A stretch of DNA of 35,292 bases, from the NCBI GenBank assembly GCA_017509255.1, contig JAFWQA010000057.1:1-35292 (forward strand). The letters are read 5' to 3'. Under the pieces are notes generated by a model, which was not told the DNA's origin, did not search any database, and saw only the letters and a program-made list of their open reading frames with translations. Positions 4,136 to 34,460 of this stretch are shown in pieces. A program made the translations under genes and the position numbers. The DNA comes from Clostridia bacterium. GTDB taxonomy: Bacteria > Bacillota > Clostridia > Christensenellales > Aristaeellaceae. Position 1 is the first letter of the stretch; the number at the start of each line of letters is the position of its first letter.

Positions 4136-4286
4136 CTGATACCGTATAAGTCGTGTCTCCAAATCTCCAAATAGTAGTTGCCGGAGAACCAGAGCGATCG
4201 GAAAGCCCTGGTCGCGCCCGCAGGCGCGAAATCCCCTCCGGAAGATTACAGAATGCCATTGTTCAGCGATTCCGTATCGTGATCAG
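4136..4286 (+). repeat. Structured interspersed repeat, copy a
   Basis: First of a tandem pair. Core hairpin 1 at 4189-4211 (CCAGAGC / GCCCTGG, one mismatch); hairpin 2 at 4212-4229 (TCGCGCC CGCA GGCGCGA). The right part (4196-4286) matches copy b (4330-4420) with two differences in 91 bases. Ends CTGATACC.. and ..GTGATCAG are imperfect inverted repeats. The left boundary is approximate. Confidence 0.75.
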
Positions 4287-4420
4287 GAGGACAACAGGCC
4301 GAGTAAGTGCATTGCCGAAGGTCCAGGGCGATCGGAAAGCCCTGGTCGCGCCCGCGGGCGCGAAATCCCCTCCGGAAGATTACAGAATGCCATTGTTCAG
4401 CGATTCCGTATCGTAATCAG
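4287..4420 (+). repeat. Structured interspersed repeat, copy b
   Basis: Hairpin 1 at 4323-4345 (CCAGGGC / GCCCTGG) and hairpin 2 at 4346-4363 (TCGCGCCC / GGGCGCGA). The right end runs into the metallophosphoesterase gene and supplies its last codons and stop (4397-4420, minus strand). Confidence 0.8.
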
Positions 4421-5269
4421 ATGGACGGTGGGCGGACAGCCGATCCGGATGGGCAGACGGGAAGTACCGACACCGTTGCTGATCAGCATCGGAATGCGGT
4501 TCTCCTCCACCCATCCACGCTGGTGCTGCTCCGGAACCTCGTCCGCGATGTGCAGCCACTGCAGCCCGAAGGGCAGCTGGCCGGCGTGGGTATGACCGAA
4601 CAAACCGAGGTCAAACCAGCCGGTTTTATCATTCCTGTCCATCACGCGCAGGGCGTTGTCGATGATCTCCGGCGAGTGGCTGAGCAGAATCACGAAGTCC
4701 TCCCGGACAACGCGGCCGGCCAGCGCGTCCAGATCATAGCTGCTCTCCGAGAGCGGGTCCGCGCCCACCAGATAGAGATTCCGCTGTCCGACGCGCACCT
4801 CCTGGACCGCGTTGTTCAGCAGGGTGATGCCCTTGAGCTTGAGCGTCTGCAGCAGCGCGCGGCTGATTTCCGACTTGTGGTCCGCCTCGCCGAGCACAGC
4901 ATAGACGCCGTAGCTGGAGTGGATCGCGGGCAGCTCGCGGAAAAAGCGGACCAGGTTGTCCGGCCTGTCGGTGTAGTCCCCGCCGAGGAGGACGATATCC
5001 GGATTCAGTCCGTTGACGGTGCTGACCAGCGAGGCGGCGCGCCCCTGGGTGAACCAGGGAAACCCGCTGACGTGCAGGTCCGACACATAGGCAATCCGCA
5101 GCTGGCGAATGTCCTGTGGAAGGTCCGCGCTGGTCACTGTATGCTGCTCGACCTGGAGCAGATAGGGCTCGAAGAACGGATAGGCGAGCAGGACGACGAC
5201 CACCAGGATCAGTGCCAGATAGCCGAAGAGCCAGATGGGACGGTGCTTGATATGTTTGCCGCGCAGCAT
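4397..5269 (-). CDS. Membrane-anchored metallophosphoesterase, YkuE-like
   Basis: 290 residues. One N-terminal transmembrane segment (about residues 13-33, LFGYLALILVVVVLLAYPFF) places the catalytic domain outside the membrane. Calcineurin-like phosphoesterase motifs appear in order: VSDLHVSG, LGGDYTD, LSHSPE and FGHTHAGQ. The third motif, normally GNHD, reads GEAD here (within VLGEADHK), so a metal-bridging Asn and the adjacent His are replaced; activity may be altered. Known relatives hydrolyse phosphoester substrates at the cell surface; the substrate here is unknown. Start ATG 5269 has GGAGG close upstream. The last seven residues (LITIRNR) and the stop are encoded by repeat copy b, so the original C terminus was replaced. 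Divergent from the flavin reductase gene with a 40-base gap. Confidence 0.85.
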   Translation of the reverse strand: MLRGKHIKHRPIWLFGYLALILVVVVLLAYPFFEPYLLQVEQHTVTSADLPQDIRQLRIAYVSDLHVSGFPWFTQGRAASLVSTVNGLNPDIVLLGGDYTDRPDNLVRFFRELPAIHSSYGVYAVLGEADHKSEISRALLQTLKLKGITLLNNAVQEVRVGQRNLYLVGADPLSESSYDLDALAGRVVREDFVILLSHSPEIIDNALRVMDRNDKTGWFDLGLFGHTHAGQLPFGLQWLHIADEVPEQHQRGWVEENRIPMLISNGVGTSRLPIRIGCPPTVHLITIRNR

Positions 5270-5309
5270 AATGCCTCCAACAATAAGCGGGAATGGGTGG
5301 GAGAGAAAT

Positions 5310-5927
5310 ATGAAGGAAACGAATGAGACCTACCGCGGACTGCAGCCGACGGTGCTGCTGTCGCCGGTGCCGGTGGTGCTTGTCTCCTGCGCCGGGGAGC
5401 GCCCCAACGCGCTGACGGTCGCCTGGGCCGGGACCGTCTGCAGCCATCCGCCCATGGTCTCGATCAGCCTGCGCCGGGAGCGCTTCTCCTATGAGCTGAT
5501 CCGTTCAAGCGGCGAGTTCGTCATCAACCTGGCGGACGAGGTGCACAGCCGGGCTGTGGATTACTGCGGGATCCGCAGCGGGCGCAAGGAGGACAAGCTC
5601 GCGGCCTGCGGACTGCAAACCGTACCCATGGAACAGATGGCAATCGCGCCGGCGGTGCAGGGCTTCCCGGTCCATATGGGCTGCCGGGTGCGCCAGGTGG
5701 TGCCGCTGGGGAGCCACGACCTTTTCCTGGCGGAGGTGGTCAGCGTGCGCGTGCGGGAGGACCTGTTTGATCCGGACGGTTCCCTGCACCTGGAGCGGGC
5801 GTCGCTGCTGTGCTACAACCACGGCGTCTACCAGCGCGCGGAGCAGGTGATCGGCTTCTTCGGCTGGTCTGTTGCGAGGAAGGACGTTTACGAACGGCGG
5901 ATGCTCAGCCTGCGGGGGAGGCGCTGA
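5310..5927 (+). CDS. Flavin reductase-like, FMN-binding split-barrel protein
   Basis: 205 residues from ATG 5310, preceded by GGGAGAG; a longer frame upstream is out of keeping with family starts and overlaps the divergent gene. The family pattern is clear: PVPVVLVSCAGERPNALTVAWAG near residue 20, then SHPPMVSISLRRERFSYELI, FVINLADE, and a C-terminal LCYNHGVY. Members of the flavin reductase-like domain family bind FMN and reduce flavin or act as small flavoenzymes in the cytoplasm; the partner is unknown. The 3' end overlaps the convergent GNAT gene by 23 bases. Confidence 0.85.
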   Translation: MKETNETYRGLQPTVLLSPVPVVLVSCAGERPNALTVAWAGTVCSHPPMVSISLRRERFSYELIRSSGEFVINLADEVHSRAVDYCGIRSGRKEDKLAACGLQTVPMEQMAIAPAVQGFPVHMGCRVRQVVPLGSHDLFLAEVVSVRVREDLFDPDGSLHLERASLLCYNHGVYQRAEQVIGFFGWSVARKDVYERRMLSLRGRR

Positions 5928-6528
5928 CCCACTCCTCCGCGAGGATCGCGTAGAGACAGACGTCCTTCCATGCGCCTTTGTTGCGGATGCGGCCGCGGAG
6001 AACGCCCTCCCTGCGCATGCCGCAGTGCTCCATCACCCGGCCGCTGGCGGGATTGTCCAGCTCGTGCATGCCCTCCACCCGGTGAAGGCCCATCCGGTCG
6101 AAGCACAGCCCGAGCAGCGCCCGGAGCGCCTCCGTAGCCAGCCCCTGATGCCAGAACTCCCGGGCGAGGCTGTAGCCGACTTCCGCAGAGAGGTGCTCCT
6201 CGTCCCAGGCGTTGAAGCCGATCGTTCCGATCATCCGTCCGCTGCTCCGGAGCACGATCGCGTAGAGCGAGGGCTCGGCGTTCCAGTACTGGCGGCGGAT
6301 CATGCGGATCACCGCGCGGGTCTCCGAGAGGGAGCGGTGCGCGCGCCAGAGCACATGCCGCGCCACCTCCGGGTCGCTGGCGTAAGCGTAAAAATCCGCG
6401 GCGTCTCCCCGGCGGACCGGGCGCAGCAGGAGACGCTCCGTCTCCAGCGGCGGGAGAGAGGCGAAAAAGCCGCGGACATCCTCGGGCTCCTCAGGCAGCA
6501 GACGGGACAGACACGCACGGATCCCCAT
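5905..6528 (-). CDS. GNAT-family N-acetyltransferase, RimJ/RimL type
   Basis: 207 residues; ATG 6528 has GGAGG nearby upstream. Typical RimJ/RimL pattern: LETERLLLRPVRRGDAADFY, then AIVLRSSGRMIGTIGF, then VGYSLAREFWHQGLATEAL, which carries the acetyl-CoA pyrophosphate-binding loop, then ELDNPASGRVMEHCGM. The enzyme would transfer acetyl from acetyl-CoA to an amine, often a protein N terminus or small molecule; the substrate cannot be read from sequence. A 37-residue extension precedes the domain. Its 3' end overlaps the flavin reductase gene (convergent), and the Nudix gene lies upstream on the same strand with a 69-base gap, so the two are probably co-transcribed. Confidence 0.85.
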   Translation of the reverse strand: MGIRACLSRLLPEEPEDVRGFFASLPPLETERLLLRPVRRGDAADFYAYASDPEVARHVLWRAHRSLSETRAVIRMIRRQYWNAEPSLYAIVLRSSGRMIGTIGFNAWDEEHLSAEVGYSLAREFWHQGLATEALRALLGLCFDRMGLHRVEGMHELDNPASGRVMEHCGMRREGVLRGRIRNKGAWKDVCLYAILAEEWVSASPAG

Positions 6529-6597
6529 CAGCGGAAAATCCTCCGAATGAAAACGTTTGGACCGACCGGGAAGAAAAAGACAAGACGTTTCGTTGAA

Positions 6598-13153: not shown

Positions 13154-13189
13154 TGTTCTGAATTCGGAATGCGGAATTCTGAGTGCGTG

Positions 13190-13325
13190 ATACCAATCTC
13201 AAGCAAGAACTGCAAATCAGTAACAGCATGTGGCCGAAGGTCCAGGGCGATCGGAAAGCCCTGGTCGCGCCCGCAGGCGCGAAATCCTTCTGTTGACAAT
13301 AAGCATTCTAAACTGAGATTAGTAT
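13190..13325 (+). repeat. Structured interspersed repeat, copy c (cleanest copy)
   Basis: 136 bp. The left end ATACCAATCTCA and right end CTGAGATTAGTAT are imperfect inverted repeats, and weaker complementarity reaches about 40 bases inward. Hairpin 1 is at 13242-13264 (CCAGGGC / GCCCTGG), hairpin 2 at 13265-13282 (TCGCGCC CGCA GGCGCGA). It is flanked on both sides by GAGTGCGTG (13181-13189 and 13326-13334). Confidence 0.85.
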
Positions 13326-13334
13326 GAGTGCGTG

Positions 13335-13435
13335 ATACCAATCTCAAGCATGAACTGCAAATCAGTAACAGCATGTGGCCGAAGGTCCAGGGCGATCGGA
13401 AAGCCCTGGTCGCGGCCCGCAGGCCGCGAAACCCT
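13335..13435 (+). repeat. Structured interspersed repeat, copy d (right end lost)
   Basis: The left end ATACCAATCTCAAG at 13335 follows copy c after nine bases. Hairpin 1 is 13387-13409, hairpin 2 13410-13429 with the longer arms TCGCGGCC / GGCCGCGA. Past 13432 the sequence no longer matches the other copies, so the right end is truncated or diverged. It lies between the 3' ends of the surface protein gene and ileS. Confidence 0.8.
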
Positions 13436-13470
13436 TTGCAAGAATTCCAGTATACCGGAAGTTAACAGAA

Positions 13471-16400
13471 TCAGTTGTTCGGAACCACGCGGATGGCCAG
13501 AGTGGCCTGCTCTCCGTTGATGTCCCAGTCGGCCGTGAAGGAGCTGTCCGCCTCGCCGGCGGCCAGGCTGACGGCGAGGGTGCCCTTCATGATCATTTCA
13601 CGGCGCTTCGCGATCGCCTGTGCCAGCCGCTCCGAGCAGCGGAAGAACACCTCGATGCGGTCGGTCACCTCATAGCCGGCGTCCTTGCGCATATTCTGCA
13701 GCTTGCTGATCACCTCGCGGGCAAAGCCCTCCTGGATCAGTTCCTCCGTCAGGTTGGTGTCCAGCACGACGGTTACGCCCTTGTCCTCCTGGGCGACGAA
13801 GCCGGGCTTCTGCATCGGCTCGGTGAGCACATCGCTCTCCGCGAGGGTCACCGGGGTGCCTTCCACCTCGAAGGAGACGGTCTCGCCGCGCTTGAAGGCG
13901 TCCACCACGTCGTTGCCGTCCATGCCGGCGAGCGCCTGGCCGATCTTGCCGAGCAGCTTGCCGTACTTCGGGCCCAGAGTGCGCATCTGCGGCTTCAGCT
14001 TGTAGGTGGTGAAGGCGCGGGCGTCGTCGACAAAGTGGATCTCCTTGACGTTCAGCTCGTCACGGCACAGCGCCTGGTAGGCCTCCTCAAAGTCTGCTCC
14101 CTTGACGTACATCCGCTGCAGCGGCTGGCGCACCTTCAGGCTGGCCAGGTTGCGGCAGGAGAGACCCAGCGCTTTGACCTCGATCAGCGCGGCCATCTGC
14201 CGCTCCATCTCGGGATCGATGCGGCTGGGATCGGCGGTGGGGAAGGCGCAGAAATGCACGGACTCCTCCGCGCCCGGCAGGTTGTTCACCGCCAGGTTCT
14301 GCCAGATCTCCTCCGCCATGAAGGGGATGAAGGGTGCGCAGACTTTCGCCAGGGTCAGCAGCACGTGGTACAGAGTCGCGAAGGCGGCTTCCTTGTCGCC
14401 GGCCATGCCCTTGCCCCAGAAGCGCTCGCGGCTGCGGCGCACATACCAGTTGCTCAGGTCGTCCACAAAGGACTCGATCGCGGTGGCCGGCTCGGTCACG
14501 CGGTAGTGGGTCAGATCGTCATCCACGCGGAGAATCAGCGAGTTCAGCCGGGAGAGAATCCAGCGGTCCATCAGGCTGAGCTCCACGCCGTCCAGCGGAT
14601 GCGCTGTCGGGTCAAAGCCGTCGATCTGCGCGTACATGGCGAAGAAGGCGTACACGTTCTGCAGGGTTGCCAGGAAACGCAGGGGCCCTTCCTGCACGCC
14701 CTTGTCCGAGAAGCGGGTGGGCAGCCAGGGCGCGCTGGTGGCGTAGAAATACCAGCGCAGGGCGTCGGCACCGTACTTGTCCAGCGCGTCGAAGGGGTCA
14801 ACCACGTTGCCAAGGTGCTTGGACATTTTCTTGCCCTCGGCGTCCTGGACATGGCCCATCACGATGCAGTTCTCGAAAGGCGCGCGGTCGAACAGCAGCG
14901 TGGAGATGGCCTCCAGCGTGTAGAACCAGCCGCGGGTCTGGTCGATGGCCTCGGAGATGAACTGCGCGGGGAAGTTGGCCTCGAAGATCCCCTTGTTCTC
15001 AAAGGGGTAATGCCACTGGGCGAAGGGCATGGAGCCGGAGTCGTACCAGCAGTCGATGACCTCCTTGACGCGGTGCATGTTCCTGCCGCACTCCGGGCAG
15101 CGGATCTCCACCGCGTCGATGTAGGGACGGTGCAGCTCGATGTCCGGGCCGGGATCGGAGACGGCCATCTCCCGCAGCTCGGCGATGGAGCCGATGACGT
15201 GCAGGTGGCCTACCGGGCAGCGCCAGACCGGCAGGGGAGTGCCCCAGTAGCGCTCGCGGGAGAGGCCCCAGTCGATGACATTCTCCAGGAAGTTGCCCAT
15301 GCGGCCTTCCTTGATGTGATCCGGCAGCCAGTTGATGGTCCGGTTGTTGCGCACGAGATTGTCCCGAAGCGCGGTCATCCGGATGAACCAGGTGGGCCGG
15401 GCATAATACAGCAGCGGCGTGTCGCAGCGCCAGCAGAACGGATAGTCGTGGGCGAAGGGAACCGCCGCGAAGAGCAGCCCGCGCTGCTTCAGATCCTCAA
15501 GGATCAGCTTGTCCGCGTCCTTGACGAAGACGCCGGGCCAGTCGGTCTCTTTGGTCATGCAGCCCTTGGTGTCCACCAGACAGATGAAGGGGAAGCCGTT
15601 GTCCCGGCAGACGCGGTTGTCGTCCTCGCCGAAGGCCGGCGCGATATGCACGATGCCGCTGCCGTCCGTCATGGTGACGTAGTTGTCCGCAATGACATGC
15701 CAGGCCTTGGTGTCCTCAGGCAGAAGGCCGCGCTGGAAATCGAAGAGGGGCTCATAGGCCATGCCCACCAGCGCGCTGCCGGGCATCTCCTCCAGAATCT
15801 CCACGGGCTTGCCCTGGAAGACGGCTTCGATCAGCGCCTTGGCCATGATGTAGGTGCCGTCCTCGGCCTTGAAGCGCGCGTAGATATCCGTCGGGTTCAC
15901 GCACAGGCCCAGGTTGGAGGGCAGCGTCCAGGGCGTGGTCGTCCAGGCCATCAGGTAAGTGTTCTCCTCGCCGCGCACCTGGAAACGGACGAACGCGGAG
16001 GTCTCCTTCACGTTCTTGTAGCCCTGGGCGACCTCGTGGCTGGAGAGCGCGGTGCCGCAGCGGGGGCAGTAGGGGACGATCTTGTGCCCCTCGTAGAGCA
16101 GCCCCTTCTCCCAGATCTTCTTCAGCGACCACCATTCACTCTCGATATAGCTGTTCTGATAAGTGATGTAGGGATGCTCCATGTCGACCCAGTAGCCGAC
16201 CTGGTCGCTCATCCGCTCCCACTCATGGAGATACTTCCAGACGCTCTCCTTGCAGCGGGCGACGAAGGGCTCGATGCCGTAGGCCTCGATCTGGTCCTTG
16301 CCGTCCAGACCGAGCTGCTTTTCGACTTCCAGCTCCACCGGAAGACCGTGGGTGTCCCAGCCGGCCTTGCGGGTAACGTTATAGCCCTTCATGGTCCAGA

Positions 16401-16611
16401 AGCGGGGGATCAGATCCTTGATAACCCGGGTCTCGATATGGCCGATGTGCGGCTTGCCGTTGGCCGTGGGCGGTCCGTCGAAGAACGTCCAGGTGGGCGC
16501 GCCGTCCCGGAGATGGAAATAGCGGCGGACCGTGTCCCGCTGCTTCCACAGCGCCATGACCTCCCGCTCACGGGCGACGAACTTCATGTCCGTAGCTACT
16601 TTCTGATACAT
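13471..16611 (-). CDS. ileS: Isoleucyl-tRNA synthetase
   Basis: 1046 residues. Charges tRNA-Ile with isoleucine in the cytoplasm. ATG 16611 is chosen because AAGGAGG lies nine bases upstream and the T-box leader precedes it. HIGH motif at residues 55-58 (KPHIGH) and a KMSKS-type motif reading KMSKH at 595-599 (KKMSKHLGN). The CP1 editing region lies between them (WTTTPWTLPSNLGL). Length and the KMSKHLGN form fit the longer, eukaryote-like IleS class rather than the roughly 930-residue common bacterial class; that class is known to include mupirocin-insensitive enzymes, but resistance is not shown here. Regulated by the T-box at 16647-16900. Confidence 0.97.
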   Translation of the reverse strand: MYQKVATDMKFVAREREVMALWKQRDTVRRYFHLRDGAPTWTFFDGPPTANGKPHIGHIETRVIKDLIPRFWTMKGYNVTRKAGWDTHGLPVELEVEKQLGLDGKDQIEAYGIEPFVARCKESVWKYLHEWERMSDQVGYWVDMEHPYITYQNSYIESEWWSLKKIWEKGLLYEGHKIVPYCPRCGTALSSHEVAQGYKNVKETSAFVRFQVRGEENTYLMAWTTTPWTLPSNLGLCVNPTDIYARFKAEDGTYIMAKALIEAVFQGKPVEILEEMPGSALVGMAYEPLFDFQRGLLPEDTKAWHVIADNYVTMTDGSGIVHIAPAFGEDDNRVCRDNGFPFICLVDTKGCMTKETDWPGVFVKDADKLILEDLKQRGLLFAAVPFAHDYPFCWRCDTPLLYYARPTWFIRMTALRDNLVRNNRTINWLPDHIKEGRMGNFLENVIDWGLSRERYWGTPLPVWRCPVGHLHVIGSIAELREMAVSDPGPDIELHRPYIDAVEIRCPECGRNMHRVKEVIDCWYDSGSMPFAQWHYPFENKGIFEANFPAQFISEAIDQTRGWFYTLEAISTLLFDRAPFENCIVMGHVQDAEGKKMSKHLGNVVDPFDALDKYGADALRWYFYATSAPWLPTRFSDKGVQEGPLRFLATLQNVYAFFAMYAQIDGFDPTAHPLDGVELSLMDRWILSRLNSLILRVDDDLTHYRVTEPATAIESFVDDLSNWYVRRSRERFWGKGMAGDKEAAFATLYHVLLTLAKVCAPFIPFMAEEIWQNLAVNNLPGAEESVHFCAFPTADPSRIDPEMERQMAALIEVKALGLSCRNLASLKVRQPLQRMYVKGADFEEAYQALCRDELNVKEIHFVDDARAFTTYKLKPQMRTLGPKYGKLLGKIGQALAGMDGNDVVDAFKRGETVSFEVEGTPVTLAESDVLTEPMQKPGFVAQEDKGVTVVLDTNLTEELIQEGFAREVISKLQNMRKDAGYEVTDRIEVFFRCSERLAQAIAKRREMIMKGTLAVSLAAGEADSSFTADWDINGEQATLAIRVVPNN

Positions 16612-20242: not shown

Positions 20243-20274
20243 TGCTATTTCCTCCAAGGCGTTTTGCTACAAAG

Positions 20275-20301
20275 CGGCAGCCTGGATTGGACAGGCTGCC
20301 G
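20275..20301. other. Hairpin between mobC and the relaxase gene
   Basis: Perfect 10-bp inverted repeat CGGCAGCCTG (20275-20284) / CAGGCTGCCG (20292-20301) with a seven-base loop. The position fits either an attenuator or an oriT inverted repeat; no nick-site consensus was confirmed. Confidence 0.5.
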
Positions 20302-20314
20302 CCGGAGATCGTTG

Positions 20315-20656: not shown

Positions 20657-20722
20657 TTTTCTTTGCTCCTGACGATGCGGTTCGTGATAACAATCCTAAT
20701 AATCCTAAAAAGTGCGAAGAAA

Positions 20723-22240: not shown

Positions 22241-22534
22241 TGTGATTTCCTTTCTTGATTGTGAACATTGGTGTGTGCTGCGGATCAGGCAGATGAATCC
22301 CCATTGGGATGATTCTTGCTTTTCTCTCCTCCTATGCCCTTTTCCCAGATAGAAACCTTGTCTGGCTCACATCCAGTCCCCGGTGGGGCGCTTGCTTCCG
22401 ACGCGGTAAGGTGCTCCGGAATTCAGAAATCCGTTGGTCGGAAGGTCTTGGCGGTGTATATCAGGCAAAGGAGTCAGCTCGATTGTCAAGGTGCTGTGCC
22501 GACCGGTGCTCCTGCCGGCACCTTCACAGTACCG
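22241..22534. other. Non-coding stretch upstream of the DUF3987 gene
   Basis: Contains the ribosome-binding site of the DUF3987 gene and a GC-rich imperfect inverted repeat near 22483-22524 (AAGGTGC..GCACCTT). No convincing coding region was seen. A replication or transfer origin is possible but unsupported. Confidence 0.3.
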
Positions 22535-22586
22535 CAAAAGAAAAAGGCCCGCTTTCATTTGCGCAAGATTGCAATGGAAGCGGGCC
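22535..22586 (-). terminator. Minus-strand terminator without a visible upstream gene
   Basis: GGCCCGCTTTCAT (22546-22558) pairs with ATGGAAGCGGGCC (22574-22586) with one G-T type mismatch. On the minus strand it is followed by a T-rich tract (complement of 22535-22545). No coding gene lies between it and the divergent Xre promoter. Confidence 0.75.
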
Positions 22587-22645
22587 ACTGTGCAGATTCT
22601 TTCAAATATGAAAGCAAAAACGGATGATAAATTGTCGGTGTTCGC

Positions 22646-22674
22646 TTGTAATAGGGAACAATTGTTCGTATAAT
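22646..22674 (+). promoter_or_regulatory. Promoter with embedded palindromic operator for the Xre gene
   Basis: TTGTAA (22646-22651) and TATAAT (22669-22674), 17-base spacer. The spacer holds the perfect 12-bp palindrome GAACAATTGTTC (22656-22667), well placed for repression, most simply by the Xre product itself. Confidence 0.8.
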
Positions 22675-22708
22675 GGCCGTGATGATAACCGAAAAGGAGG
22701 GGCTGCGC

Positions 22709-23535
22709 ATGCATACGTATCTGGGCGGCACGACGGGGGAGCGAATCACGGACCTGATCCTGGAGAACAAAACGTCACAGGCCCGGCTGGCGAAGGCCTT
22801 GCATATCTCCGAGGCAACCATGAGCCGATATATCAGCGGAGCTTCCGAAATCCCCGGCAGCACGCTGATGGCCATCGCCGCGCACTTCGGCGTGACAACC
22901 GATTTTCTGCTGGGCGCGACGGATATTCCTTTCAGAACCAATTATGACCTGGACAGGCTGGGACTGTCGAAAGAGGCGGCGGAGAAGATGCTTGCGGGAG
23001 AGCTGGACATGCATGTTCTGAATACGCTGCTGGCCAACGAGGATTTTGCCATCCTGACGCATCAGATCGCAGCCTATGTGAAGGATACCAACAACGAGTG
23101 CCTCGCCGTGATGAACAAGGTCATGGAAATCGCCGGCGGCGTTGTACAGAAGCACGCGAAGACGCATCCTCTCGACAAGGTAACGCCATTCGGGCTTACC
23201 GGGAGATCCGCGCGCACATGGTCGATCCCAAACTGCCGGATACCGCGGCGATGGAATCCAGCTGGGCCAGGATCCTTTCATATCTCCGGGAAGGCGCTGA
23301 AGACCGGGCCAGGAGGAGCACAAAACTGACCTCAGAAATCATGGAAGGCATTGTTGAGGTGCTGGAAGCGCGCAAGGGAACCTTTGAGCCTCACAGCGTG
23401 ACGCTTCGGGACATTTCCGGTGCGATTGTTAATGTCATAGGGGGGTCTGATTTTCCGGAGGAAGACAAGAAGCAGATTGAAACAATGCTGTGTGAATTAC
23501 TGGAAAAATGTGCCAATGCGAGCGGCAAAGCGTGA
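22709..23535 (+). pseudogene. Xre-family transcriptional regulator, frameshifted near 23180
   Basis: The start is ATG 22709, with AAAGGAGGGG upstream; an upstream ATG overlaps the -10 box. The N-terminal helix-turn-helix is clear: ITDLILENKTSQARLAKALHIS, then SEATMSRYISGASEIPG and LMAIAAHFGVTTDFLLGATD. The first frame reads sensibly to about 23178 and then turns into proline- and arginine-rich noise, ending at 23329. A second frame carries on with NAIRAYREIRAHMVDP to a stop at 23535. One missing base near 23178-23182 explains this; intact length would be about 275 residues. It may be a real inactivation, since the adjoining relaxase is also broken, or a sequencing error. The DNA-binding half is intact and could still repress. 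Confidence 0.75.
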
Positions 23536-25359: not shown

Positions 25360-25382
25360 TGATGATGAGAGGAGCGATGAAC

Positions 25383-27194
25383 ATGAAACGCATGATGCTG
25401 GTTTGGGTGATGATTCTGTGTCTGGTGCCGCTGGGCGGATGGGCGGAGACGCCTGCGGATCAACCGCTTGTCTGCGGAGACTTTCAGTATATCCTGCTGG
25501 AGGACGGCAGTGCGGAAATCACGAATTATACCGGCACTGAAACGGATGTCGAGGTGCCGGCCGCCCTGGACGGACACCCGGTGTCCGCGATCGGCGACCA
25601 TGCGCTCCAGTTCCGGCCGGGACGGATCAGGCTCACCGGTGTGGCATTGCCTGACGGCATCCGGAGGATCGGTGATTTTGCCTTTGCGGCATGCAGGCTT
25701 TCTTCCGTTGATTTGCCGGAGGGGCTTGAAACCATCGGTAAGATGGCCTTCAACAGCTGCGGTCTCACAGCGGTCGACCTGCCGGAGTCGCTGATCTCCA
25801 TCGGCGAGAGTGCGTTTTCCGGTACGGGCCTCACCGATATCACCCTGCCCCGAAACCTTGCGGAACTGGGCGGTCCCAACTGCTTCGGCTCGTCTCTGAT
25901 AAGTATCGCCGTATCCCCGGACAACCCTTACTGGCATGTCATTGACGGGTTCCTGTACCGGAAGGAAGACGCCTGCCTGTTCCTCTGTCCGGGCGGACTT
26001 GAACAGACCGCGTGCGAGATCCCAGCCGGCACAGCTGTCATCGGGGAGAGCGCCTTTGCGGGAAACAGAAACCTTACGTCGGTCGTCGTGCCGGAAGGTG
26101 TAACCGTGATCGGGGAATCCGCTTTCTCCGGATGCCGGAAGCTTTCCGACATCACCCTGCCCGGAAGCCTCCGGGAAATCGGAGCGGGAGCCTTCCGGAA
26201 CTGCTCCCTGATATCACTGGCCCTGCCCGAAGGCCTGCTCTGTCTCGGTGACTATGCGTTTAAATACTGCAGCAGCCTGACGAGCGTCTCTCTGCCTGTC
26301 ACCCTGACAGATGTCGGCGCAAACCCGTTCTGTGAATGCAAGGCACTGTATGAGATCCCGGTGCCGGAGGATCATCCGGCGCTTCGGTTCGAACATGGCC
26401 TGCTCTTCGACCGGAGCAGGGGCGTCCTGATCTGCTTCGCCCCGGGTTCTCCGGAAACCGACTGCACCATCCCGGACGGGATCACCATGATCGGCGCATG
26501 CGCTTTCTATATGACCCTAGTTGAGACGGTGACCATTCCGGATGGCGTTGAGGAACTCGGAGACGAGGCGTTTGTGGAATGCCACTGTCTTGAAAGCATC
26601 GTATTGCCCGAAAGCATGCGCAGGCTTGGTGTCGAATGCTTTTTGGGCTGCCCGTTTGCCGGTATTGTTCTGCCCGAGGGCCTGATCACGATTGGTGAGG
26701 GCGCGTTCCTCGGATGCGAATTGAACTCCGTCCACATCTCCTCCACCGTCCGGGAAATCGAAGGCAATCCGTTTCAGTGTTGCGCCGATCTCGTCCGGAT
26801 CACGGTTTCCCCGGAAAGTCCCCATTTTGAGGCAATGAACGGAGCGCTGGTTGCAAAGGCGGACAAACGGCTGATCTGCTATCCGGAGGGACTTCGCCGT
26901 TCACACTTTGAAATCCCGGAAGGGGTGCGAGTCATCGGCTACGAAGCATGCGCAATGACAGAAGAGCCGTGTGAGATCATCGTTCCGGAAGGTGTGACGA
27001 CCCTCGAAGACCGCTGCTTCTGCTATTGCACCGATGTGGACATCTGCCTGCCCGCAAGCGTGGCTGCCATTTCGCCGAGCGCCTTCTATGACCAGGGAGG
27101 CCGGGGGCCGATCCTGCATGTCATGCCGGGCAGTGTCGCAGAGGCTTTCGGCAATGAGAAAGGATTCCGCTGTGTTCCGCAGGAAGCGGAATAA
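25383..27194 (+). CDS. Exported leucine-rich-repeat protein, BspA type (LRR_5)
   Basis: 603 residues from ATG 25383; AGGAG is 8 bases upstream, whereas it is only 2 bases from the ATG at 25377. Signal peptide MKRMMLVWVMILC..GGWAE. The mature part is almost entirely 23-residue LRR_5 units of the form LPEGLETIGKMAFNSCGL, from about residue 55 to 590. They are interrupted three times by the family's island segment (for example VSPDNPYWHVIDGFLY). The C-terminal capping stretch is MPGSVAEAFGNEKGF. No sortase motif or wall-binding domain was seen, so it is probably secreted free. BspA-like LRR proteins are linked with adhesion and protein binding in other species; that role is inferred. Confidence 0.88.
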   Translation: MKRMMLVWVMILCLVPLGGWAETPADQPLVCGDFQYILLEDGSAEITNYTGTETDVEVPAALDGHPVSAIGDHALQFRPGRIRLTGVALPDGIRRIGDFAFAACRLSSVDLPEGLETIGKMAFNSCGLTAVDLPESLISIGESAFSGTGLTDITLPRNLAELGGPNCFGSSLISIAVSPDNPYWHVIDGFLYRKEDACLFLCPGGLEQTACEIPAGTAVIGESAFAGNRNLTSVVVPEGVTVIGESAFSGCRKLSDITLPGSLREIGAGAFRNCSLISLALPEGLLCLGDYAFKYCSSLTSVSLPVTLTDVGANPFCECKALYEIPVPEDHPALRFEHGLLFDRSRGVLICFAPGSPETDCTIPDGITMIGACAFYMTLVETVTIPDGVEELGDEAFVECHCLESIVLPESMRRLGVECFLGCPFAGIVLPEGLITIGEGAFLGCELNSVHISSTVREIEGNPFQCCADLVRITVSPESPHFEAMNGALVAKADKRLICYPEGLRRSHFEIPEGVRVIGYEACAMTEEPCEIIVPEGVTTLEDRCFCYCTDVDICLPASVAAISPSAFYDQGGRGPILHVMPGSVAEAFGNEKGFRCVPQEAE

Positions 27195-27314
27195 CCGCGG
27201 CTGTTTGAAACGCCCGGAGGAAAACCGTCCGTCATGGTCACCGGACCGGGAAAGCGACGGTCACGGATGAAAACGGCATGACAATGATGCATGGCTCAGA
27301 AAGCATATACATCG

Positions 27315-27351
27315 ACCACAGCGGGGCTGTGGTGTGGGAGGAACGGTGACC
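27315..27351 (+). promoter_or_regulatory. Conserved leader module with hairpin, copy 1
   Basis: Hairpin ACCACAGC-GGG-GCTGTGGT (27315-27333) directly ahead of GGGAGGA and the ATG at 27352. Nearly identical to 28837-28873. The same bases encode HSGAVVWEER plus stop at the end of a mini-frame starting at ATG 27278. Confidence 0.6.
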
Positions 27352-28821
27352 ATGAAACGCATGATGCTGGTTTGGGTGATGATCCTGTGTCTGGTGCCGC
27401 TGGGCGGATGGGCAGAAAGCGCCGCACCGACCCAGCCGCCTCCTCCGCCGGAATGGATGCCTGTGGTGACCCCGGAGCCGGACAACCTGAAGACTTGCGG
27501 GGATTATCAGTATGTGATCCAAGAGGACGGTACGGCCGCGATCCTGAAGTACAACGGCAGTGACAGGGAGCTGGTCGTTCCATCCGCACTGGATGGCGTG
27601 CCTGTCACTGTCATCGGGGAATGCGTCTTTGCCTATACATGGTACAAATCGGTTTCTCTTCCCGACGGACTCCTCGAAATCGGAGACAGTGCTTTCTATA
27701 TGAGCGCATTCGACAAGGATTTCGAGATCCCGTCCTCTGTTCGTCGGATCGGCAATGCGGCTTTCTATCGTTCGGGCATTCAGCATGTCAACCTTACGAA
27801 TGGTCTGACAGAGCTTGGTATCAATGCATTCGCCTTCTGCAAGATGCTCACTGAAGTGAACCTGCCGGAAGGTATGACCAAGATCAGCGACGGAGCCTTC
27901 CAATGCTGCACAAGCCTGGAAAGCATCATACTGCCGGATTCGCTCACAGAGATCGGTCATTTTGCGTTCTACTACACGCCGTTAAAAGAGATCCGACTCC
28001 CTGATGGCATTCAAAGGCTGGGCATCGCTGCCTTTGAGGATTGCGAAGAGCTTACTTCCATCCATCTGCCCGACAGCATCGCATCGGTTAGAGGCAGCCC
28101 CTTCTCCCTGTGCCCCGCGCTGACGGAGATCACAGTGTCAGACAGCCATCCGTATCTGGAACTGCGGGACGGTGTGCTGTTCTCAAAGCCGGACCACCGC
28201 CTGCTCTGTTATCCGTCCGCCCTGACCGCAACCGAATACAGTGTGCCGGAGGACGTGCGGGAAATTGCTGAACATGCCTTCCGCGGGAATGAAAACCTCG
28301 TGAAGCTGTGGATTCCTGACGGCGTTACGCGGATGGGTGAAGTGGCCTTCTCGTCGTGCTATGCCATGGAGGAGGTCCGCCTGCCGGACGCGCTGGAGGC
28401 CATCCCGGAGCGTGCTTTTGCAGAATGCGAAAGCCTCCGCGTGATCAATATGCCTTCTGCGCTGAAGTCGCTGGGCAGTGATGCGTTCATCGGCTGCGCT
28501 TCCCTGACGGAGATCGACATCCCCGCCGGTGTCACAGATCTTCCGCGGACGATCTTCTATGCTTGCAGAAGTCTCACCCGGGTGACACTGCCGGACGGGC
28601 TGCGGACGATTGCGATCCATAACTTTTACGGATGCAAAAACCTCACTTCTGTCAATCTGCCTGCCAGTATTGAGTTTATCGAAGACCACGAGTTCAGGAT
28701 GTATGACAGCAACCTCGGGGAAAACATCGTCATACCCGGCCTCACGGTGATCGTCACGCCCGGGACCTATGCCGAGCAGTATTGTCAGGAGCAGGGGATC
28801 CCTTATGAATACACAGAGTGA
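27352..28821 (+). CDS. Exported leucine-rich-repeat protein, BspA type (LRR_5)
   Basis: 489 residues from ATG 27352, with GGGAGGA upstream. The signal peptide is identical in sequence to that of the gene at 25383 (MKRMMLVWVMILC..). A short Pro-rich linker (about residues 25-45, TQPPPPPEWMPVVTPEP) leads to a strand-forming repeat-entry region (YQYVIQEDGTAAILKYNG), then LRR_5 units from about residue 75. One island segment (VSDSHPYLELRDGVLF) and a C-terminal cap (TPGTYAEQYCQEQG) follow. It differs from the 25383 protein by the linker and fewer islands. Secreted, probably binding host or microbial ligands (inference). Preceded by leader module 1. Confidence 0.88.
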   Translation: MKRMMLVWVMILCLVPLGGWAESAAPTQPPPPPEWMPVVTPEPDNLKTCGDYQYVIQEDGTAAILKYNGSDRELVVPSALDGVPVTVIGECVFAYTWYKSVSLPDGLLEIGDSAFYMSAFDKDFEIPSSVRRIGNAAFYRSGIQHVNLTNGLTELGINAFAFCKMLTEVNLPEGMTKISDGAFQCCTSLESIILPDSLTEIGHFAFYYTPLKEIRLPDGIQRLGIAAFEDCEELTSIHLPDSIASVRGSPFSLCPALTEITVSDSHPYLELRDGVLFSKPDHRLLCYPSALTATEYSVPEDVREIAEHAFRGNENLVKLWIPDGVTRMGEVAFSSCYAMEEVRLPDALEAIPERAFAECESLRVINMPSALKSLGSDAFIGCASLTEIDIPAGVTDLPRTIFYACRSLTRVTLPDGLRTIAIHNFYGCKNLTSVNLPASIEFIEDHEFRMYDSNLGENIVIPGLTVIVTPGTYAEQYCQEQGIPYEYTE

Positions 28822-28836
28822 AATGGATGAGTATTA

Positions 28837-28873
28837 ATCACAGCGGGGCTGTGGTGTGGGAGGAGCGATGACC
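28837..28873 (+). promoter_or_regulatory. Conserved leader module with hairpin, copy 2
   Basis: ATCACAGC-GGG-GCTGTGGT (28837-28855), then GGGAGGAG, 16 bases after the stop of the preceding gene. The 5' arm differs from copy 1 but still pairs with one G-T wobble. The same stretch contains a 14-codon frame from ATG 28827 (MSINHSGAVVWEER). Confidence 0.6.
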
Positions 28874-29746
28874 ATGAAACGTATGATGCTGGTTTGGGTG
28901 ATGATCCTGTGCCTGATGCCGCTGGGCGGGTGGGCGGAGAGAACTGCGCCGACCCAGCCCCCGACACCGCCGCCCGAGATGCCCGCGTCGACGCCCAGAT
29001 CCATCGGACTGGATGAAGGCTCATCGGCACACTACGATTTTCCGACGGCAGTGGACGGATATGTCTTTGTATCTTTCGCCGGTGAAACTGAGATCCTGAA
29101 CGATTACACCGATGCGGATTCGTTAATGCTGCTGGTTGTCTGTCGGTACTTTGAAGAAGTCTATCCGGGCTGTACGCTTGAACAGCTGAAAGATTTTGCA
29201 GTCTTATCCCCTGACTATGGATGGTCGGCTAACAGAAGGTTTTACGAGCGTGCGGGGAACGGCAAAGAATACCGTTTTTTCGCCATGAGCTTCAAGCATC
29301 CATATGTTTATGGGGTGTCCTTTGATGTTCTTCTGTCCATGGGATACCAGTGTGCTTTTTTCACAGAGCAGGATCCCTATATGGCTGACCGGCTGGAGCA
29401 ATATCAACGTGCGCCAATCAGGTGCGAGGATGCGGTCGACCTGGCCTGGAAGGAGTTCGCTTCTCAGCAGGCGGCTGCTGGGTATCCTCCGATGAATGAG
29501 GAAACACGTCCAGATTATCTGATCAATGTCAGTTTTTTGGTTTCCTACAACGAGGAAACCACATGCTGGACTGTCGACTTTTATGAGCGGCAAGCGCCAT
29601 ACAACGATGAAAAGAGTGAGGGAAGCATTGTGTTTGAGGCGGAGTTCGATGCTTTTACCGGAGAGCTTTTGTACTCGCAGGTTTTCCACAATACGCAGCA
29701 CGGGGAGCTACAGCGAATGGTCGATCAACGGATCCAGACCCGATGA
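28874..29746 (+). CDS. Exported protein with PepSY-like end, unknown family
   Basis: 290 residues from ATG 28874, with GGGAGGAG upstream. The signal peptide is almost the same as in the two LRR proteins before it (one Met for Val), followed by a Pro-rich linker (TAPTQPPTPPPEMPAS). The mature part is not LRR. It contains EDAVDLAWKEFASQQAAAG and ends with EAEFDAFTGELLYSQVF, a pattern like PepSY-type domains where DAxTGExL closes the fold. Tandem domains of this kind often modulate peptidases or bind polymers outside the cell; no specific function can be assigned. Overlaps the next small reading frame by four bases (ATGA). Confidence 0.7.
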   Translation: MKRMMLVWVMILCLMPLGGWAERTAPTQPPTPPPEMPASTPRSIGLDEGSSAHYDFPTAVDGYVFVSFAGETEILNDYTDADSLMLLVVCRYFEEVYPGCTLEQLKDFAVLSPDYGWSANRRFYERAGNGKEYRFFAMSFKHPYVYGVSFDVLLSMGYQCAFFTEQDPYMADRLEQYQRAPIRCEDAVDLAWKEFASQQAAAGYPPMNEETRPDYLINVSFLVSYNEETTCWTVDFYERQAPYNDEKSEGSIVFEAEFDAFTGELLYSQVFHNTQHGELQRMVDQRIQTR

Positions 29747-29991
29747 CAGAAGCTTTTGCAGTTTGCAGATGGATGAGCGCTGCTGTTTATGAGCGCCGAC
29801 TGAACTACTACGGGGACTGGTTTGACTCGTCGGCTATCGACTGGATCAACGAGGTACTGGCCGCAGAGGGCTTTGACGGCCGGCTGTGCGCGTTTTCCGA
29901 CGGCGGGCAGGGGCTGATCCTGTTCTATGGAGACGATGCCCGCATCGAACAGCTGCGGCAAGTCATCCCCCAGCCGGCCTGGGGCTTTTGA
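29743..29991 (+). CDS. Small hypothetical protein
   Basis: 82 residues starting at ATG 29743, which overlaps the preceding stop as ATGA. An internal ATG at 29773 is an alternative start; neither has a strong ribosome-binding site, so coupling to the previous gene would be needed. The sequence (WFDSSAIDWINEVLAAEGF, then LCAFSDGGQGLILFYGDD) reads like a folded alpha/beta domain, with good codon bias. No signal peptide and no family recognised. It may be a remnant of a longer gene. Confidence 0.45.
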   Translation: MTEAFAVCRWMSAAVYERRLNYYGDWFDSSAIDWINEVLAAEGFDGRLCAFSDGGQGLILFYGDDARIEQLRQVIPQPAWGF

Positions 29992-30064
29992 CCTGCTGCC
30001 CGGCGCATGGGGCCAATGGATTCCCGACCGGAGAGAATGACAACTGACAGGAGGAGAATTTGAC

Positions 30065-31678
30065 ATGAAACGCATGATCGCTGTTTGGATGATGATCCTG
30101 TGCATATCTTTTCTGCAGGGAGCTGCTGAGACGGCCGGTAGCGACGCCCTGTCCGGTGCGGCTGAATCCCTGATCGGCATCTGGGAGTTTGAAAGAACGG
30201 ACAGCCTAGACATTGTGTTCACTGCTTATGCGGAATTCACCCCGGATGGCCTCTATATCCATCACCATGTTGGAGAATCAGAAGACGGCTCCTACATCAA
30301 CTGCAGCATAGACACCTATGAAGTGCAGGGCAGCATGCTGGACGGCAATTCCAGCTTTGTCATCGAGGGTGACACCCTGACGATCACAACGGCAGGGTTT
30401 TGGGAGGAGCAAAAGAGCACATACCATCGGGTGACGCAGCGGCCTCCGGAGCTGTATGTGATTGAACGGACCGGTGATTATTGCTACACGGTGGAGGCCA
30501 ACGGTCAGGCAACGATCATGCGGTACGTCGGGGATTATGATGCGGCACAGGAGCGCCTCGTGATCCCTGCTGACTTGAACGGCTACCCCGTCACGGGCAT
30601 CGGACCGAACGCATTTGAACGCTGTCCCGTCGGAATCGTTGAACTGCCGGATTCGATCACCGCGATTGGCCGCTTGGCGTTTTCCAACGCGCAGATTCAT
30701 GACATTCTCATTCCCGACAGCGTCACGGAAATCGGCGCGTCGGCGTTTTCTGAGAACCTGTTCGAATCCGTTACGATCCCCGCCAGTGTCAGAAGCATCG
30801 GAGATTCCGCCTTCGACCACTGCTTTGATCTGAAGGAAGTGCACCTCCCGGAGGGACTGGAGAGCATGGGCGAGTGTGTCTTTTCCGGCTGCGGCAGCCT
30901 GGAACAGATCGTCCTCCCGGACAGTCTTGCCAGGCTTGATGCGAATCCCTTTGATCGCTGCGAGGCTCTCACGGACATCGTCATCTCCGACAGCCATCCG
31001 TATCTGTACATGAAGGACGGCGCCCTGTTCACAAAGGCAGACAGGAAGCTGATCAGCTTTCCGTGCAAGTCTCCGGCGGAACACTACGCCATCCCGGAGG
31101 GCACCACGGCCATCGCGAATCATGCGTTCGAGGGGAATCGCTATCTGGTGTCCGTCACCATTCCCGATTCTGTGTCGGAGATCGGCGAATTCGCGTTTGC
31201 CGACACCTGGTCTCTTGAGTCAATCCGCATTCCTCAAGGTGTGACGGAAATCCGCCGGAATACCTTTTATAACGCTATTTCGCTGCGGGAAGTCCGGCTT
31301 CCGGATGGGCTCACGGACATTGGCTATCAAGCCTTCTGGCAATGCGGCACCCTTTCCGAGATCAATATTCCCAGCAGCGTCATCCGGATTGATCATGAAG
31401 CCTTCCGCCAATGCTACTCTCTGACAGACCTGACCCTCCCCGAGGGAATCCAGACCATCGGCAGCTGGGCATTCGAAGATTGTAAGGGACTGACCGACAT
31501 CCATTTGCCGGCCAGCCTGACAGAGATCGGGGATCGGGCCTTCACCTATTATAATGCTTACTCTGTACCGAATCATGTGCCGCCGAAAGCCACCTTCACC
31601 GTTGTAGCGGGAAACTACGCGGAGCAGTACTGCATTGAGAACGGCCTGAACTATGTTTCCCGGGATACCGCCAACTGA
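30065..31678 (+). CDS. Exported protein: lipocalin-like N-terminal domain fused to LRR_5 repeats
   Basis: 537 residues from ATG 30065, with AGGAGG upstream. Signal peptide MKRMIAVWMMILC, a diverged relative of the neighbours' peptide. Residues about 30-125 form a lipocalin-like beta domain (LIGIWEFERTDSLD, FTPDGLYIHHHVGES, FVIEGDTLTITTAG), comparable to the C-terminal domain of the 24319 protein. An entry strand (YCYTVEANGQATIMRY) leads to LRR_5 units from about residue 175. One island segment (ISDSHPYLYMKDGALF) and the cap VAGNYAEQYCIENG follow. This joins two domain types found separately in the array, which suggests domain shuffling. Secreted; function inferred as ligand binding. Confidence 0.85.
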   Translation: MKRMIAVWMMILCISFLQGAAETAGSDALSGAAESLIGIWEFERTDSLDIVFTAYAEFTPDGLYIHHHVGESEDGSYINCSIDTYEVQGSMLDGNSSFVIEGDTLTITTAGFWEEQKSTYHRVTQRPPELYVIERTGDYCYTVEANGQATIMRYVGDYDAAQERLVIPADLNGYPVTGIGPNAFERCPVGIVELPDSITAIGRLAFSNAQIHDILIPDSVTEIGASAFSENLFESVTIPASVRSIGDSAFDHCFDLKEVHLPEGLESMGECVFSGCGSLEQIVLPDSLARLDANPFDRCEALTDIVISDSHPYLYMKDGALFTKADRKLISFPCKSPAEHYAIPEGTTAIANHAFEGNRYLVSVTIPDSVSEIGEFAFADTWSLESIRIPQGVTEIRRNTFYNAISLREVRLPDGLTDIGYQAFWQCGTLSEINIPSSVIRIDHEAFRQCYSLTDLTLPEGIQTIGSWAFEDCKGLTDIHLPASLTEIGDRAFTYYNAYSVPNHVPPKATFTVVAGNYAEQYCIENGLNYVSRDTAN

Positions 31679-31747
31679 AGCGATAAAATGCCGGGCACGG
31701 GGTGAAACTGTTTCCAATCAACGCAAGATCCGAAGGAGGTCTCCCCT

Positions 31748-33833: not shown

Positions 33834-33908
33834 CAAGGGTTGTGACGTTTTTTCATCCTTGCAAATCTTGCAAAATCGTATTGACTGCGTTATGCATTCT
33901 TGCTTTTG
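33834..33908 (+). repeat. 75-bp interspersed repeat, copy 2
   Basis: Same orientation as copy 1 (19628-19702), starting CAAGGGTTGTGACG, with about six or seven differences. Here it is intergenic, 31 bases before structured repeat copy e. Confidence 0.85.
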
Positions 33909-33939
33909 CTTATGCAATCATGACCGAATGTACCATCTC

Positions 33940-34078
33940 ATACCAATCTCAAGTAAGAACTGCAAATTCAGCAACGGCATGTGGCCGAAGGTCCAGGGCG
34001 ATCGGAAAGCCCTGGTCGCGGCCCGCAGGCCGCGAAATCTTACTGATGACAATGAGCACTTTAAATTGAGATCAGTAT
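33940..34078 (+). repeat. Structured interspersed repeat, copy e
   Basis: 139 bp. Ends ATACCAATCTCA and TTGAGATCAGTAT. Hairpin 1 is 33993-34015 (CCAGGGC / GCCCTGG), hairpin 2 34016-34035 (TCGCGGCC CGCA GGCCGCGA). Compared with copy c, each arm of hairpin 2 has one extra base, and pairing is kept. Confidence 0.85.
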
Positions 34079-34246
34079 CAGACGATGTGACTTGTATTGA
34101 ATTCGGTGCTTTTGCCTATTCCCTTCATCCCGACCGGCATAATCGAATAACCCGGATTGAATTTCCCAGTCTCCCTCTGCTTTGTGGGGGAGATTTCTCT
34201 CTTGTACTGTGGGCGAGAAAAAAGGTTTTGAAAACAAAACGAAAGT
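34079..34246. other. Non-coding stretch between repeat copies e and f
   Basis: No coding region, promoter or further repeat was recognised. A minus-strand frame here lacks a ribosome-binding site and any family signature. Confidence 0.4.
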
Positions 34247-34295
34247 AAAGAAGGACTCAACTGAGCTGGAGAGCTCGGCCGAGTCCTTCTTTCTA
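34247..34295. terminator. Bidirectional terminator between convergent genes
   Basis: AAAGAAGGACTC (34247-34258) pairs with GAGTCCTTCTTT (34281-34292), enclosing a smaller GAGCT stem. There are T-rich or A-rich flanks on both sides, suited to stopping transcription from either direction. Confidence 0.9.
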
Positions 34296-34304
34296 TTCTG
34301 CTAT

Positions 34305-34460
34305 AAACCAATCTCAAGGATAAACTGCAAATTTATTAAACAGCATGCACCCGAAAACCCAGGGCGATCGGAAAGCTGCCAGTCAGGCTGCGGACATGGT
34401 TGTGGTCCGCAGGCCGCGAAATCCGCTGGTGATAATAAGCATATGAAAATGAGATCACTA
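34305..34460 (+). repeat. Structured interspersed repeat, copy f (rearranged core)
   Basis: The left end AAACCAATCTCAAG and right end ATGAGATCACTAC keep the family ends. The core GGGCGATCGGAAAGC is kept but the two usual hairpins are replaced by one 8-bp perfect hairpin CTGCGGAC / GTCCGCAG at 34388-34412. The right end overlaps the stop codon of the kinase gene (34458-34460). Confidence 0.75.

Follow-up and report, generated by a model that had tools for sequence, protein, structure and literature searches.

Contig JAFWQA010000057.1 of a Clostridia bacterium (Aristaeellaceae; assembly GCA_017509255.1), which is 35,292 nt long and was analysed over its whole length (hereafter, the window), carries six copies of a structured repeat behind its genes. 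The question raised by this locus is what such a repeat is, on which strand it would be read and how it came to lie at gene ends. The original prediction, made from the letters alone, described a structure under selection that occurs in same-way pairs restricted to convergent gene ends, and suggested an element resembling miniature inverted-repeat transposable elements (MITEs) or repetitive extragenic palindromic (REP) sequences. The reading that we favour, with a probability of roughly 0.52, is that of a mobile structured element of the 3′ untranslated region (3′-UTR) that contains a pseudoknot and that in some lineages lies inside a MITE. The unit, the strand and the placement rule of the original prediction need revision. 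It contained neither the pseudoknot nor the probable sense strand, and it mentioned neither the duplicated gene tails nor the viral contigs.

The core folds into a covarying pseudoknot

The conserved unit is a core of 35-60 nt. In the orientation of the original prediction it comprises CCGAAGG, hairpin 1 with the loop GCGATCGGAAAGC and an optional hairpin 2 with the loop CGCA, and the CCGA that precedes hairpin 1 pairs with TCGG in its loop. On the opposite strand, taken here as the sense strand, the order is an optional hairpin with a UGCG loop, a second hairpin whose loop UUUCCGAUC is closed by GC/GC, and a trailing CCUUCGG. CCGA inside the loop UUUCCGAUC then pairs with UCGG of the trailing CCUUCGG, giving an H-type pseudoknot. 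The stems vary with pairing kept (CCAGG, CCAGAG, CCAAAGG, GTCAGGG, CCGGAGG; GCGGCC, GCGGTC, GCGCTC, GCCGCC).

Covariation was assessed in an alignment (A2) of 52 of 70 picked sequences, the 18 with odd second hairpins being left out. In this alignment 96.9% of the cells pair, 38 cells are altered on both sides compared with 7.3 in shuffles, and both-sided change affects 7 pairs (2.9 in shuffles). When the partners are slid by one column, pairing falls to 40-43%. Compensatory changes far exceed those of shuffles in this statistical test, which supports the selection on structure that had been proposed. The pseudoknot covaries as well. Among 76 unique sequences its pair 1, which the search constrained only to C or G on the upstream side, is C-G in 68, G-C in 8 and broken in none, whereas shuffles reach at most 66 paired sequences; pair 3 is broken once, and pair 4, on the strand of the original prediction, is A-T in 62 and A-C in 14. 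Within a wider set of 269 matches collected without a stem requirement, pair 1 is broken in 4. An outer stem P1 beyond the core scored 13.3, barely higher than the 12.2-12.8 of shuffled partners, and is not claimed. Rfam 15 gave no match in the window at the gathering score, and a lax Rfam search of positions 13180-13480 returned four matches, all of them far under the cut-off (best E 1.3).

The strand opposite to that of the original prediction is the likelier RNA strand, because the 14 A-C combinations of pseudoknot pair 4 become G-U on it, the loop of hairpin 2 reads cUGCGg in 143 of 167 cases, and the copies lie in sense behind genes.

Copies lie preferentially in sense behind genes

Gene context was determined with a hexamer-based gene caller written for this analysis. 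The host copies come from an exact-string scan (covering at least the matches listed) and from search loci; they are not independent, these two sources skew the set towards the CCAGG stem type and the genome RGIG5986, and locus ends conceal neighbouring genes or copies in part of it. Among 175 host copies, 99 lie between tandem genes (60 in sense, 39 not), 42 between convergent and 11 between divergent genes, 20 at a contig edge and 3 inside a called gene. A restriction to convergent ends does not hold, since only 42 of the 152 host copies with both neighbours called are found there. Gaps of at least 100 nt in the same loci, a background computed for 177 copies under a slightly different rule and including the copy-holding gaps, are tandem in 252 cases, divergent in 87 and convergent in 64 (403 in total). 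Compared with them, convergent gaps are enriched among host copies (p 0.002) and divergent gaps are depleted (11 of 152 copies vs 87 of 403 gaps, p 3e-5). Pairing and uniform orientation fared no better as rules: 97 of the 175 host copies lack another copy within 400 nt, and neighbours at that distance run the same way only for 31 host copies, 47 having an opposite one. Because of these gene-context and neighbour counts, the three convergent same-way pairs of the window are not the rule.

The bias concerns the strand and the distance from the stop codon. Copies lie in sense behind a gene in 102 of 152 host cases (median distance 53 nt) and in 43 of the 55 viral cases with both neighbours called, each with p 3e-5 for copies that are not independent. 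Viral copies that have a sense gene upstream number 45 when contig edges are counted in; their distance from the stop has a median of 2 nt, and 35 of them are within 13 nt or overlap the gene, some of the negative distances being due to spurious second hairpins in short forms. As regards the role at transcription ends considered in the original prediction, a tie to RNA 3′ ends is likely.

Upstream genes of about 200 nt or shorter (3 of 40 viral, 3 of 98 host) were left out, and 72 of the 95 host genes were then scanned. Among the upstream genes of viral contigs, matches to head, packaging and tail families are frequent. Pfam matches among the 37 viral genes were Phage_capsid (8), Phage_capsid_4 (3), Phage_cap_E (2) and Phage_capsid_3 (1), counted with their overlaps. 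A gene-by-gene PHROGs scan of 30 of these 37 genes, with 7 left out, gave 9 major head proteins (some of them near relatives, so not nine independent cases), 2 large terminases, 2 portals, 2 major tail proteins, and one each of a head protease, a baseplate protein, an HNH endonuclease and a family of unknown function; 11 of the 30 had no PHROGs match at 1e-8. For the 72 scanned host genes no listed family was matched by more than two members (PfkB by two, tRNA-synt_1 by one). Genes preceding the element in low-copy genomes are, among others, those for iPGM, RNase Y, KduI, aconitase, ATP synthase b and DAP dehydrogenase.

Gene tails are duplicated around some copies

Read in sense, several copies show the order gene tail, element, degenerate second tail. 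One case is the first pair of the window, copies a and b, behind a metallophosphoesterase gene. A repeat X made up of the tail of this gene plus spacer (4364-4426, minus strand) lies directly upstream of copy b and recurs, with 60 of 63 nt identical, as X′ (4230-4292, minus strand), which lies 22 nt behind copy b and immediately precedes copy a in sense. This repeat explains the pair a/b. At locus L260 the unit of tail plus element is itself tandemly repeated and decaying.

Repeats anchored at the 5′ edge of the element were searched for in 190 elements outside arrays and compared with 426 shuffled pairs: 14 elements exceed the 99% level (about 2 expected) and 29 the 95% level (about 10 expected). 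Where a repeat touches both edges, exactly or nearly, it measures 46 nt at L176, 50/52 at L260, 70/72 at L250, 38/41 at L030, 53/54 at L008 and 44 at L010 (13 nt off). The tetranucleotide GATT precedes the long form in 76 of 137 copies and the short form in 0 of 76. Direct repeats that are long, vary in length and reach up to the element at their edges would fit staggered nicks followed by end-joining, target-primed synthesis or template switching, with no choice among the three.

Orthologous sites are found both occupied and empty. The gene kduI is present in 26 genomes of the genus, which together with G040 gave 27 sites for comparison. Six of them hold the core string behind the stop codon, 12 have only 12-21 nt between the genes, and 9 have other spacers or neighbours, among which the site of G009 carries a copy in the opposite orientation. 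By eye, CCTTCGG is followed in G004, G040, G021 and G015 by a CATC-started sequence that resembles CATCTGGG of the gene itself, whose likeness is weak in G003, and in G020 CCTTCGG is not intact; the G040 copy is the only one of these sites among the best-listed repeats of the edge-anchored test. On the best kduI gene tree the occupied sites need 4 changes, a value that 26 of 500 shuffles reach or undercut. Stems at this site differ between genomes (CCAGGG, AAGGGGG, CCGGGAGGG), and by eye their pairing is intact apart from single bulges. This suggests that the fold has been maintained in place or that copies were replaced by conversion. In the G015 copy (L262) a long insertion separates hairpin 1 from the CCTTCGG tail, and the tail is kept. 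A permease gene gave a second comparison by eye: the sites of G003 and G035 are occupied, and the 13 other orthologs compared show no copy within 190 nt.

The element is confined to one bacterial family and phage-like contigs in the collections searched

So far as searched, the element is restricted to one family of bacteria plus phage-like contigs. The pattern CGAAGG-N(2-12)-GCGATCGNAAAGC is present in 28 of 100 relatives, namely 26 of 45 genomes of the genus, counting the own one, 2 of 15 in the other genera of the family and 0 of 40 in the order. A closely similar pattern was found in 1 of 398 genomes of a phylum sample, the own genome, and a reversed-pattern control gave zero matches in the 100 relatives and in the phylum sample. 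Among the matches listed for the core string, RGIG5986 holds the most stretches of any genome, and most named records belong to Clostridia of the rumen or omasum. An exact 18-mer occurred at 19 loci judged by title to lie outside the group; the CCGAAGG context is missing in 18 of them, which count as chance matches, and L058 (Ruminococcus) is likely a true copy. IMG/VR yielded 60 stretches with the pattern, viral by the label of that collection. The 15 viral matches with stems under 4 bp are mostly chance, and L183, L190, L210 and L211 resemble true copies with a mismatch beside the loop.

Two variants stood apart. G058, from another genus of the family, has 17 BLAST matches to the core and zero exact pattern matches, that is, its own variant family. 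The viral contigs L187, L209, L211 and L228 combine the CCAAAGG stem type with GGGGC..GCCCC in place of hairpin 2, and their host is perhaps outside this family.

A selfish repeat would account for the spread, less well for the position

Both inverted ends, with at most 3 mismatches each, are recognisable in 25 of 235 copies, copies c and e of the window among them. Of the MITE/REP-like nature put forward in the original prediction, a MITE-like outer shell is supported for a minority, most copies being without recognisable inverted ends. Inspection by eye revealed no short target duplication common to the 25 copies, although the bases flanking the two ends often agree. A 9-nt direct repeat, GAGTGCGTG, is found at copy c only and could equally reflect the tandem order of c and d. 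REP-like features are the number of exact pattern matches, up to 127 in one genome, and the scarcity of host copies inside called genes (3 of 175).

These features bring up the foremost rival, to which we give somewhat more than one chance in five: a purely selfish REP- or MITE-like repeat, in which the hairpins would be sites for a single-stranded DNA transposase, the fold would be kept for mobility and the position would reflect tolerated insertions. High copy number in few genomes (127 matches in G034 and 43 in G029, none in 19 of 45 genus genomes) and the inverted ends of the 25 copies speak for it, as does the depletion between divergent genes, which is expected of a selfish repeat because promoters would be avoided. 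Neutral insertion would not, however, lead one to expect the sense bias and the 2-nt median viral spacing, nor the kduI stems that differ with pairing kept, and the transposase that it calls for is not seen beside the copies. No stemmed copy occurs in 20 Y1_Tnp regions examined, of which 12 are in genomes with the motif and several end at contig edges, and Y1_Tnp shows no link to the motif (12 of 21 genomes with it, 11 of 16 without). A REP-associated tyrosine transposase (RAYT) or other Y1 transposase was accordingly rejected as mobiliser. Nor do reverse transcriptases co-occur with the motif: RVT_1 is present in 9 of 26 genomes with the motif and 5 of 19 without (p 0.75), one of the 14 positive genomes being below the family cut-off. 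Both association tests are weakened by incomplete genomes. Separately, at L156, L157, L171, L172 and L174 the Y1_Tnp genes lie near long palindromes of their own (GGGGACGGTTCC-like and GGACAGTCC-like), which may be the genuine REP sequences of these genomes.

A U-rich patch lies beyond the core

Behind CCUUCGG on the sense strand the share of T peaks at +11/+12, with 0.70/0.68 in 137 long forms and 0.50/0.53 in 76 short forms, and is 0.21 farther downstream. At least one stretch of 5 T in 7 occurs within +1..+15 in 43 of 213 copies, compared with 8 and 9 in two control stretches. The patch, together with the location behind stop codons, would suit a non-canonical terminator or a processing site composed of folded core, 8-nt gap and U-rich patch, an explanation that ranks a little below the selfish repeat. 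The raw counts at convergent ends lean the same way, canonical terminators being present in 7 of 34 ends with a sense copy and in 29 of 77 without. In intrinsic terminators the U-rich stretch directly follows the stem, but here it is centred at +11/+12 and does not adjoin it, and among host copies it is as common behind those not in sense (13 of 48) as behind those in sense (18 of 107). The patch may for that reason be a target preference or part of the element; it may belong to element, target or terminator. Tandem genes have equal shares of canonical terminators with and without a copy (14 of 55 vs 51 of 209), and the kduI copy lies between co-directed genes, where full termination would silence the next gene. 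Substitution for a canonical terminator found no clear result in these counts. Absence of Rho as the reason for special terminators was likewise discarded: the rho model matches 39 of 41 genomes at E<=0.001, only 10 of them above the cut-off, and some of the matches, among them that of the own genome, are weak and possibly stem from relatives of ATP synthase.

Two further explanations have little weight. It is improbable that the element is like a short interspersed nuclear element (SINE), in which case an mRNA 3′ end with its pseudoknot would be copied into new gene ends through target-primed synthesis, leave abutting target duplications of varied length (about 40-70 nt) and be used by phages behind capsid genes to stabilise late messages. 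Pseudoknots just behind the stop codon stimulate read-through in some viruses, and of the 26 sense-oriented short forms in viral contigs, 22 overlap the end of the called gene or are at most 11 nt from its stop, but host copies at a median of 53 nt make a read-through or translation-coupling signal acting on the ribosome the least credible reading of all.

A mobile 3′-UTR element is the favoured reading

In the reading of a mobile 3′-UTR element, the RNA would consist of the optional hairpin, the pseudoknotted second hairpin and a U-rich patch some 9-13 nt beyond the core. The element would enter directly behind stop codons, and its insertion would duplicate the gene tail (about 40-70 nt including the stop codon and any spacer), giving tail, element and decaying tail; the gene would stay whole because the insertion leaves its tail in two copies. 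Tandem copies such as the pair a/b would arise by repeated events or by slippage between tail repeats. In the lineage of the window some copies (c, e) are enclosed in a 137-bp MITE with inverted ends, which would spread as a unit of its own. The RNA form would be the functional one, the element would protect or define the 3′ end of the upstream message, and it would be the core itself, not only its MITE carrier, that moves.

Several observations weigh against this reading. As to structure, stems of at least 4 bp were required when the 76-sequence set was collected, so its stem counts are partly built in, and in the pseudoknot the search string left only pair 1 nearly free, pair 2 being fixed by it and pairs 3 and 4 constrained. 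As to strand, folding energy favours that of the original prediction, the opposite one being more stable in only 13 of 89 unique cores, and internal G-U pairs in stem 1 count 2 to 0 for the former. As to position, the sense placement behind a gene is missing in 50 of 152 host copies and 12 of 55 viral ones, and the U-rich patch follows these host copies no less often. As to mobility, most copies have no detectable gene-tail repeat, some detected repeats (such as L176) are MITE shell or intergenic DNA, not gene tails, and no mobilising enzyme was found in the two families examined, Y1_Tnp and reverse transcriptase. Finally, well-supported branches of the kduI tree force only 1 change, so that a single old insertion with later losses may account for the occupied sites.

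The six copies of the window and their neighbours

All six copies were found where they had been noted, starting at 4136, 4287, 13190, 13335, 33940 and 34305, in one orientation throughout, with the shared core GGGCGATCGGAAAGC exact in five and changed by one mismatch in copy a. Within the window each of the three pairs is flanked by a plus-strand and a minus-strand gene, hence convergent (3121-4122/4397-5269; 7302-13103/13471-16611; 31748-33700/34458-35291). The short and the long form of hairpin 2 are as originally described. Both terminal inverted repeats are recognisable in copies c and e, whereas a and b have no recognisable ATACCAATCTCA end and d has the left end only; two adjacent hairpins hold for most copies, and not for f. 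The 15-base core string alone is weak evidence, with 7 matches at up to 3 mismatches vs 2.4 expected and 1 of 100 shuffles equally high. The whole 136-nt element is beyond chance (E 3e-66 to 5e-11).

The sense strand as taken is the minus strand for every copy. Copies b (core 4314-4369, about 31 nt behind the stop codon) and a (core 4177-4235) follow the calcineurin-like phosphoesterase gene (PF00149) at 4397-5269, minus strand. Behind the minus-strand gene at 13471-16611, which we take from its sequence to be isoleucyl-tRNA synthetase (IleRS), come copy d (13335-13436), consisting of the left half of the unit plus the core 13378-13435 with a long hairpin 2, about 38 nt from the IleRS stop, and copy c (13190-13325), a 136-bp MITE-like unit with inverted ends, core 13233-13288 and GAGTGCGTG at both sides. 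The third gene, read as a partial pfkB-family kinase (34458-35291, minus strand), is followed by the divergent copy f (34305-34455), which begins just behind the pfkB stop and has an insertion behind the hairpin-1 loop and a degenerate hairpin 2, and by copy e (33940-34078), a complete 139-bp unit with its core at 33984-34041.

A search of the own genome with the 136-nt unit gave six matches, every one on the window contig. The covariance model R1 recovered these six copies and four weaker places on other contigs: a full short form on C26 (E 7.5e-5), a slightly decayed copy on C4 (E 0.0017) about 8 nt behind a reading frame whose end presumably belongs to a GroEL-like protein, a decayed copy on C12 (E 0.006), and a match on C47 (E 0.026) that lacks the loop and is probably chance. 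The window contig (G000:C59) is itself probably misbinned, since the assembly has a second full-length IleRS on C4, 78% identical (77% by tblastn), and window positions 34451-35292 are 97.0% identical over 842 bp to a contig of RGIG5986 (L131). The G+C content of the assembly's contigs showed no separation. Downstream of pfkB the window and L131 share only a few bases after the stop codon before they diverge, at the point where copy f of the window starts; L131 is not a clean empty site because the next gene differs as well.

Elsewhere in the window, positions 25377-31678 hold a row of secreted-looking proteins, several with near-identical starts (KRMMLVWVMILCLVPLGGWAE...), which form a lineage-specific tandem family and some of which, by reading, resemble BspA-type leucine-rich repeat proteins. 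Relaxase-like and regulator-like reading frames at 19625-23535, recognised by eye, are perhaps a small integrated mobile element.

Relation to known repeats and meaning

Mitochondrial double-hairpin elements likewise consist of two adjacent GC-rich hairpins, are interspersed and are thought to be mobile; they differ in belonging to organelle genomes, and we know of no pseudoknot or gene-tail duplication in them. Between phage T4 genes, CUUCGG hairpins with stable UNCG loops lie just behind the genes, but they have no core in common with the present element, in which CUUCGG is part of a covarying pseudoknot. REP repeats are, according to a published account (PMC2817692), short imperfect palindromes, intergenic, present in more than 100 copies per genome and with stems kept by complementary change. 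In all these respects the present element resembles the RAYT-associated REP/BIME sequences, from which it differs by its conserved loop, its pseudoknot, its gene-tail duplications and the absence of a RAYT beside the motif in the 20 Y1 regions examined. The ERIC/IRU, Correia/NEMIS and RUP repeats are, according to a second account (PMC2229807), about 105-155 bp long, bounded by inverted ends and intergenic, and the RNA of ERIC and NEMIS is linked to mRNA decay. Length, inverted ends and intergenic position are shared with them, but here the conserved unit is a 35-60 nt core and most copies lack recognisable inverted ends. The Rickettsia palindromic elements of the same account (PMC2229807) are small palindromes that enter genes without killing them and can sit in frame within them, whereas the present element is placed after the stop codon and comes with a duplicate of the gene tail. 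The exact 15-base core string was in no paper of the literature searched, and a combined-term search found nothing recognised as such an element, both being weak negatives because most subscription papers are outside the coverage.

The element would unite what is mostly met separately, namely a spreading repeat and an mRNA 3′-end structure with a covarying pseudoknot. Insertion behind a stop codon with duplication of the gene tail would turn it into a 3′-UTR at once and leave the protein unharmed, and the origin of regulatory 3′ ends would thereby become directly testable.

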